DNA of 34,937 nucleotides. Source: Methylotenera sp. GTDB lineage: Bacteria; Pseudomonadota; Gammaproteobacteria; Burkholderiales; Methylophilaceae. Under the pieces are notes generated by a model, which was not told the DNA's origin, did no database searches, and saw nothing but the letters and a program-made list of their open reading frames with translations. Below, piece after piece: positions 20,558 to 22,111 of the stretch; position 1 is the first letter of the stretch; every line of letters starts with the position of its first letter. The stretch covers positions 1 to 34,937 of the forward strand of contig SYKG01000050.1 of assembly GCA_005797835.1 (NCBI GenBank), given 5' to 3'. The translations under genes and the position numbers were made by a program.

Positions 20558-22111
20558 TTAAAGCTTTTTAATAAAAAATTTTGAATTTCTTTGAGGCAAG
20601 TAAGACTCTAGTCTTTTTTTAGGAAGTTTTTGAATATTCTCTTCTTTAAAACCTTTCTCAATAAACCAGTGTTCAGTCCTTGTGGTTAGGGCGAATAGAT
20701 ACTTGAATTTTTTTTCTTGAGCCATTCTGTCACAATAATTATAAAGTTTCGAGCCAAATCCTTTCGATTGATAATTTTTATTAATAGCAAAACATGCAAA
20801 TTCGACATGATCGTTGTATGGGTATAAAGCAGCACAACCGATAATTTTATTATCATGTTCTATCACAAAAAAATTTTCTATGTCATGATCAATTCTTTCT
20901 TTACCCCTTTTTACAAGATATCCATCTGCCTCTAAAGGATTAACCAGCTTGTGAATACCTTTGACATCATTATGATTAGCTGACCTAATTGTATCGAGTG
21001 CTTTTTCGGTGATGACTGTTCCAACACCTTCGTCGGTAAATAATTCTTGAAGAATTGCACCGTCGATATGTCTATTTATAAGATGAATTTTATGAATGCC
21101 AGCTTCGGAAGCTTTGATAGCAATTTCTAGAAGATCTAACTCATTGGAATTAATATTGATGAGATCATGTTTTTTTGGATTATTTTTTGCAATACTTTTG
21201 TAGAGATTAACGACTTTTTCTAAAGTCATCTCGTGCAGAAGTTCATTTCTTAAATTAAAAATACCATCGGAATCTATCAAGAGAATAAGTTTATCAGCCT
21301 CTAATGCAATAGAAGTTTTAAATGCCACATCTTCCATCGTAAGATTAAATACTTCACCTGTCGGTGAGTAGCCAATCGGTGAGATCACTACCAATTCTTT
21401 GTTGTCTAATTTTTTCTTAATGGCTGGACTATCAATCTTTCTTACTTCTCCTGTATGTTGCATATCAACACCATCAATGACGCCTAAAGGTTTTGCAGTA
21501 ATAAAGTTTCCACTTGAAACTTTGATGTCGCTTCCGGCCATGGGTGAATTTAAAAGACTTGAAGAAAGTGTTGATTCAATATTAATCCTAATGAGGCCAT
21601 TGGCTTCTTTAACAGCTTCCATACCTAAATCGTCAGTCACGCGAACATTTTGTATAAGTTGAGTTGTAATTTTTTTTTCTTTGAGTTTTTGATCAATTTG
21701 AGGTCTTGCTCCATGCACGAGCACAATTTTGACGTTTAAGCAGGTTAATAAATTAATGTCATGAGAGAGCGCTATAAATTGATTTTCATTGAGGAGTTCA
21801 CCCCCAAAAGCTATTACAAATGTTTTGTTGCTGAAGGTGTTGATGAAGGGGGCAGCTAATCTAAACCATCTTGCGAATGTTTGGCTGTCTAATTTTTGAA
21901 TCGGATTGGACGAAGCATTATGTTGAAAAAGACTAGAGGGCGAGCAGTTAAGTACCTCACAAATTTTTATTAGTTGCGCTTCGCTGACATTTTGAGTGCC
22001 TCTTTCTATTCTAGAAAGATTACCAGGGTCGCTCGCAATTTTTTTTGCTATAACCTGCAAGGTCAACCCTAAAGACTTCCTTCTTTTTCTGATTGCTTCG
22101 CCAAGTGACAT
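20558..22111 (-). CDS. argA: Amino-acid N-acetyltransferase (N-acetylglutamate synthase) with N-terminal XRE-type HTH domain
   Basis: 517 aa. Residues ~1-65 are HTH_XRE-like ([60 protein letters not shown]). Then ArgA AAK domain ([44 protein letters not shown]) and C-terminal GNAT (CAALYPY...[19 protein letters not shown]...[14 protein letters not shown]). Confidence 0.93.

Follow-up and report, generated by a model that had tools for sequence, protein, structure and literature searches.

An XRE-type helix-turn-helix domain fused to N-acetylglutamate synthase in Methylophilaceae, with a candidate paired operator at its own promoter

Results

Domain architecture and authenticity of the fusion

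The window, meaning here the whole 34,937-nucleotide stretch of Methylotenera DNA that was analysed, carries on its minus strand a single open reading frame from an ATG at 22111 to 20558, which encodes an enlarged N-acetylglutamate synthase (NAGS, ArgA). It lies between argB and an rsmE-like gene. The features are as follows.

22181..22927, minus strand: rsmE-like gene upstream of argA (sequence-motif check)
20558..22111, minus strand: argA, XRE helix-turn-helix (HTH) plus classical N-acetylglutamate synthase, 517 aa (ORF list, profile and homologue searches)
21926..22105, minus strand: XRE HTH domain, residues 3-62 (Pfam HTH_3 and family conservation), including the recognition-helix region, residues 28-38 (family conservation)
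21878..21925, minus strand: variable linker, residues 63-78 (commonest residue at a mean frequency of 0.34)
21827..21877, minus strand: AAK N-terminal helix, residues 79-95, F89 aligned with Tyr17 of Neisseria gonorrhoeae NAGS (ngNAGS) (alignment; PMC3236213)
21017..21046, minus strand: arginine-site loop, residues 356-365, E356 equivalent to ngNAGS E270 (alignment; PMC4490483)
19645..20529, minus strand: argB, acetylglutamate kinase, downstream of argA after a 28-bp gap (ORF list, Pfam)

Elsewhere in the window, positions 302-16777 hold a long one-direction run of division and cell-wall genes (penicillin-binding protein, mur, fts, lpxC-like) of ordinary content.

The N-terminus of the protein, hereafter HTH-ArgA, matches Pfam HTH_3 at residues 7-59 (E 5e-11; 42.8 bits against a cut-off of 23), above the cut-off for the Cro/C1-type HTH of XRE-family regulators, and ClgR, an XRE regulator of solved structure, matches residues 2-75. 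AA_kinase follows at residues 96-344 (E 4e-26) and Acetyltransf_1 (GNAT) at residues 401-478 (E 2e-12). With 576 bits over residues 74-517 for the NCBIfam ArgA model NF003641 (cut-off 344) and 491 bits for TIGR01890 (cut-off 203), the AAK and GNAT domains qualify as a classical ArgA above the equivalog cut-off, and the nearest solved structure, that of N. gonorrhoeae NAGS, matches residues 77-517 (E 4e-77). The initial annotation had read this 517-aa frame as an HTH-AAK-GNAT fusion, and the Pfam and NCBIfam matches confirm at the sequence level that ORF 22111-20558 joins an XRE-type HTH to a complete classical ArgA.

Nine contigs from close relatives, each assembled separately, carry the same fusion (89-94% identity; labels mostly Methylophilaceae or Methylopumilus), and the uninterrupted frame also occurs in complete single-contig genomes. 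Close relatives without the HTH, with a sequencing error behind the join, would have spoken against the fusion; the HTH was kept in the nine contigs and in all genera. This recurrence, in the contigs and across the family, excludes both a sequencing join and chance as the source of the fusion.

Distribution and origin

The survey of Methylophilaceae ArgA that the initial annotation proposed gave a match in 180 of 187 genomes, including 119 of the 119 good ones, mostly as a single open frame that covers residues 1-517; matches that started late in the alignment also had the HTH once they were read. The domain was thus present at all 111 loci whose N-terminus was read, in 24 of 24 genera, with one further locus (L182) set aside, whose N-terminal part contains a stretch of N and is out of frame. 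Streamlined marine genera with 1.3-Mb genomes, genus g2 among them, also keep it. In a survey of 300 genomes of the order, ArgA from outside the family aligned only from about residue 45-78 and was mostly 440-480 aa long, and no match spanning the HTH was found outside Methylophilaceae in a phylum sample of 399 genomes.

In a tree of the enzyme part, the family was separated from ten outgroup sequences by a fully supported branch, so that one fusion event is enough to account for the distribution. Upstream of argA, an rsmE-like sequence was recognised at 61 family loci and at 16 of 22 outgroup loci with HTH-less argA (motif check only), which suggests that the HTH was added in place.

Conservation of the HTH and its linker

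The recognition helix is nearly invariant in the family, with L32, S33 and E36 at 100%, N31 and I35 at 98% and G38 at 97%; D28, R34 and R37 of the same region stand at 90-95%, and G30, the glycine preceding NLSRIE, at 78%. The HTH is therefore likely functional, and the recognition-helix residues, which had been named as a point where the proposal might fail, speak in its favor. The linker varies in length and sequence across the family, the frequency of its commonest residues averaging 0.34. AlphaFold models, built on shallow alignments, had a mean pLDDT of 70 for the full chain as a monomer, with the HTH below 50, and a pLDDT of 67 for the HTH alone; a Foldseek search with these low-confidence HTH models returned no significant match, the nearest being the XRE-type ClgR (E 0.28).

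The initial annotation had also held that no internal start would yield an enzyme without the HTH. This stands for the window, where no in-frame ATG, GTG or TTG occurs between codon 18 and GTG130 and an HTH-less isoform was therefore rejected, but it does not extend to the family, in which start-type codons occur within the linker or the N-helix at 75 of 103 loci. At 18 of these 103 (window excluded; L046, L047, L050, L051, L056, L058 and others), an SD-like AGGA run precedes a GTG or comparable codon close to where the AAK N-helix begins, so that an HTH-less isoform made by internal initiation is conceivable in other genera.

Arginine site and active site

In ngNAGS, arginine is held by a C-terminal AAK loop, Lys201, Glu270 and the N-terminal helix, and its binding moves this helix, giving a tighter two-fold interface and a reshaped D3 hexamer (PMC4490483; PMC3236213). 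The corresponding loop motif, E(L/I)(F/M)(T/S)xxGxGT, is present in the window protein (residues 356-365) and shared by 108 of 110 relatives, and neither K274 nor E356 varies within the family. The only two of the 110 proteins that depart from the motif, L183 and L186 of genus g2, have the loop EELYTDKGSGT. At the position of ngNAGS Tyr17 the window protein has F89, and 94% of the family has Tyr. The HTH ends about 15 residues ahead of the AAK N-terminal helix. This agrees with the earlier proposal that the HTH is tethered to that helix, since it is joined just before the element that arginine moves in ngNAGS. The catalytic residues R508 and S510 (ngNAGS R425 and S427) are conserved and the T476-W482 block is invariant, and the enzyme is therefore probably active.

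A candidate operator at argA promoters

The argA promoters of Methylophilaceae carry paired 17-bp palindromes, TTTGYRTWWWAYRCAAA. A de novo palindromic motif search over 65 argA upstream regions recovered this motif with a log-likelihood of 609, against 25-35 for shuffled sequences, a null that ignores shared ancestry; outgroup argA, argC and genus g2 were therefore used as further controls. A best site of 12 bits or more occurred in 91% of the argA upstream regions of the family and in 0.27% of shuffles, the scanned and training sets sharing many genera. The same threshold was reached before one of 22 HTH-less outgroup argA genes and in none of 26 argC upstream regions of the same family, and in genus g2, outside the training set, sites were present where the helix reads GNLS. 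In about a quarter of family loci only one site was recognisable. In the window the two sites are the following.

22122..22138, no strand assigned: proximal palindrome O2, TATGCATTTTAAGCAAA on the minus strand, candidate operator, centre 19 bp before the ATG
22173..22189, no strand assigned: distal palindrome O1, TTTGCATAAAACGCAAA on the minus strand, candidate operator, overlapping the rsmE stop codon

The centre of O1 lies 51 bp upstream of that of O2, and the two sites are the best matches in the 34.9 kb (20.7 and 17.6 bits; next 13.4) and the only matches to the strict pattern in the 1.1-Mb source genome. Looser patterns gave a few additional single sites per genome; of 20 such loci whose surroundings were read, one proved to be argA, 12 fell within coding genes, among them all six of the window genus, and seven lay between genes, with no arg gene among them. 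These genome-wide scans, which used fixed patterns in 16 genomes and could miss diverged sites, found no second conserved promoter with the operator, and other arg genes of window-genus genomes had no match to the fixed patterns. The upstream regions of argG, a gene that mostly lies close behind another, also had no operator. With no motif upstream of argC or argG and the looser matches lying away from arg genes, the palindrome pair appears to be a candidate operator for HTH-ArgA that is private to argA, and would supply the palindromic site in a target promoter that is typical of XRE regulators, here predicted from sequence.

The distance between site centres was 28-32 bp at 50 loci, 41-42 bp at six and 50-52 bp at 17, in phase with a 10.5-bp repeat (resultant length R 0.91). 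The spacing classes thus differ by about one helical turn, which places both sites on the same DNA face in all three arrangements. In the window, TATAAT stands immediately upstream of O2, with no clear -35 box, and O2 would cover the transcription start as judged from this arrangement. Other modes of control were also considered for the argA upstream region of the window: RNA-based control was rejected for lack of an Rfam match at 21900-22500, and an intrinsic terminator or strong sigma-70 hexamers were rejected, the former being absent and sigma-70-like matches occurring only at the level of shuffled sequences.

Downstream, argB is probably co-transcribed with argA in the window, and among the 81 family loci whose sequence extends far enough it lies close behind argA at 50, so that the two would often be repressed together. 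The window ArgB has an N-terminal helix and a loop close to the arginine-site motif and may therefore also be an arginine-sensitive kinase. A HAD-type hydrolase ORF (19027-19644, same strand) begins directly after argB, and argA, argB and the hydrolase may thus form one transcription unit in this genus.

Covariation of recognition helix and operator

Palindromes were weak or lost in lineages in which the recognition-helix Gly is replaced by Ser. Proteins with a Gly-Asn helix (n = 90) had median best and second sites of 16.5 and 12.7 bits, those with Ser-Asn (n = 19) of 9.8 and 2.6 bits, and those with Ser-Ser (n = 2) of 2.0 and 0.2 bits. The tree requires about four changes of the Gly state, with two independent pairs on well-supported branches (on average 1.8 concordant, 0.0 discordant), a number with which the covariation cannot reach significance; the pattern is consistent with the HTH reading the operator. 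Two variants were seen beside this pattern. A Ser subclade of genus g15 (L159, L162, L247-L260) shares a different paired promoter element, TTTGCAATAAAAACCAT ... TTATTATTTTGCAAA, possibly reflecting an altered operator specificity, and L183 and L186 of genus g2, with the helix NTSSLSRIERG, have no canonical operator.

Discussion

We consider it likely that HTH-ArgA is an active, arginine-regulated NAGS that also acts as its own transcriptional repressor through the paired palindromes, arginine being the likeliest co-repressor. In excess, or loaded with arginine, the protein would bind O1 and O2 and block the argA promoter. Pairs of XRE heads of the hexamer would bind the two palindromes, which bracket or overlap this promoter, cooperatively and on the same helix face, and the bound protein would repress rather than activate, lowering transcription of argA and, where it is co-transcribed, of argB. 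Arginine, by shifting the N-terminal helix beside the HTH, would act as co-repressor, and one protein would set both the activity and the amount of the enzyme. A D3 hexamer would present its HTHs pairwise at the two-fold interfaces, which would fit palindromic half-sites as well as two operators. The more specific picture, in which a hexameric, arginine-inhibited HTH-ArgA bridges two phased operators as an arginine-dependent repressor, with HTH pairs supplied by different subunit pairs, is tentative, and we place it a little short of evenly balanced.

Since arginine moves the helix to which the HTH is joined, and the residues of its binding site are kept in the family, arginine is probably the signal, and we infer that it would control DNA binding by HTH-ArgA. 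A substantial alternative, although one that we lean against, is that the protein binds its own promoter without an arginine signal, either as a plain autogenous governor or in response to glutamate, N-acetylglutamate or acetyl-CoA. The sequence evidence bears on the operator and the HTH rather than on the effector, the linker leading from the HTH to the helix differs among relatives in both length and sequence, and F89 stands where ngNAGS has the arginine-contacting Tyr17. However, practically every family member keeps the arginine loop, E356 and K274, the HTH is attached to the very helix that arginine moves (PMC4490483), and Tyr is found in 94% of relatives, while Phe33 fills the corresponding role in Arabidopsis NAGK (PMC3236213).

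The palindromes might also be read by a separate, stand-alone regulator, the HTH of ArgA having a structural or other role. A single 13.5-bit match, AATGCGTATTAAGCATT, upstream of an HTH-less argA in an outgroup family (L069) could be taken in this sense, and may be chance or a relic. We regard such a regulator as unlikely: the sites track the fusion when family and outgroups are compared, occur at no other conserved promoter that was found, are palindromic as XRE dimers would need, and weaken where the recognition helix changes, and a single-target regulator would itself need to have been kept in the very same 24 genera.

Arginine-dependent self-repression by HTH-ArgA, our preferred reading, is narrower than the role of a global arginine regulator of all arg genes in place of ArgR, a role that now appears very unlikely and of which the initial annotation had raised the replacement of ArgR. 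The ArgR profile PF01316 gave no match in HTH-ArgA and none in its own genome, as the proposed search for argR was to establish, nor any match above the cut-off in 187 Methylophilaceae genomes, control genomes giving matches as expected. However, it was likewise absent above the cut-off from an order-wide sample of 120 genomes, in which ArgA is nearly always HTH-less, so that genomes with the fusion are not special in lacking ArgR, and replacement of ArgR was rejected. An arg regulon was rejected as well, as the upstream regions of argC (motif in 0/26) and argG have no operator, other arg genes of the window-genus genomes have no match and no second conserved promoter was found; with a single target promoter, HTH-ArgA is no regulon-wide substitute for ArgR.

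A vestigial or passenger HTH that has lost DNA binding would be compatible with the variable linker and the low-confidence HTH models, but is highly improbable given a recognition helix that is near-invariant over deeply diverged lineages, the retention of the domain in streamlined genomes and the conserved candidate operators. An artefact of sequencing, assembly or gene calling, to which a fragmented, 84% complete source genome might point, is almost certainly wrong and already refuted by the identical unbroken frame in complete single-contig genomes and every genus.

HTH-ArgA shares with classical NAGS (ArgA; NF003641/TIGR01890; N. gonorrhoeae 2R8V family) the AAK and GNAT domains, the N-terminal helix, the arginine-site motif and the catalytic residues. 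Unlike classical NAGS, which has about 440 aa and no DNA-binding domain, it has some 75 additional N-terminal residues that form the XRE HTH, found only in Methylophilaceae in the samples searched. A review of the NAGS family mentions neither DNA nor a helix-turn-helix, and no description of an HTH-NAGS was found in the open-licence literature, a scope without most subscription journals, in line with the earlier statement that no example was known. New here are the paired palindromes in front of argA across the family; argC lacks them (0/26), and so does HTH-less argA apart from a single locus (1/22).

BzdR of Azoarcus is similarly an XRE HTH fused to a metabolic-enzyme domain. It binds cooperatively to several TGCA palindromes that overlap the promoter it targets (PMC6678401), its shikimate-kinase-like domain has lost enzyme activity, and the active-enzyme intermediate, Q1, was a chimera made in the laboratory (PMC3602430). 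HTH-ArgA appears to be a natural counterpart of that chimera, with the enzyme intact: BzdR controls a catabolic operon through a protein whose enzyme domain is dead, whereas the enzyme domain of HTH-ArgA appears intact and its predicted target is its own gene. Membership of the BzdR subfamily was rejected, the C-terminal domain not being shikimate-kinase-like and NF006015 (BzdR) matching only residues 2-69 (E 7e-6), a weak resemblance in the HTH that is far below its cut-off. The operators are not identical either; the BzdR operator, TGCA-N6-TGCA, occurs in none of the argA upstream regions and TGCA-N5-TGCA in one, so that the likeness is loose.

BirA, NadR and PutA are enzyme-regulators of the trigger-enzyme type. 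Like them, HTH-ArgA combines a DNA-binding domain and an apparently active enzyme in one chain, with an intact active site and a conserved HTH, and would control genes of its own pathway; it differs in its enzyme, fold combination and probable effector, and in having one private target promoter. BirA is described as an enzyme-regulator in PMC4016012. With ArgR/AhrC, HTH-ArgA has in common a presumed arginine-linked repression of an arg gene by a presumably hexameric protein, but its sequence and DNA-binding domain are unrelated, and ArgR controls many arg promoters.

In E. coli, feedback inhibition is exerted at ArgA and gene repression by ArgR, and the two functions usually reside in separate proteins. 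In HTH-ArgA a single polypeptide with one target promoter apparently contains both layers of feedback, and, if this is true, one arginine-binding event would shut off both the enzyme and its gene. The fusion also offers a natural system in which to study the change of an active enzyme into a transcription factor, and the paired palindromes provide a compact candidate operator for arginine control in Methylophilaceae, a family that includes industrial relatives. The arrangement would represent a minimal regulatory loop, kept even by streamlined aquatic methylotrophs.
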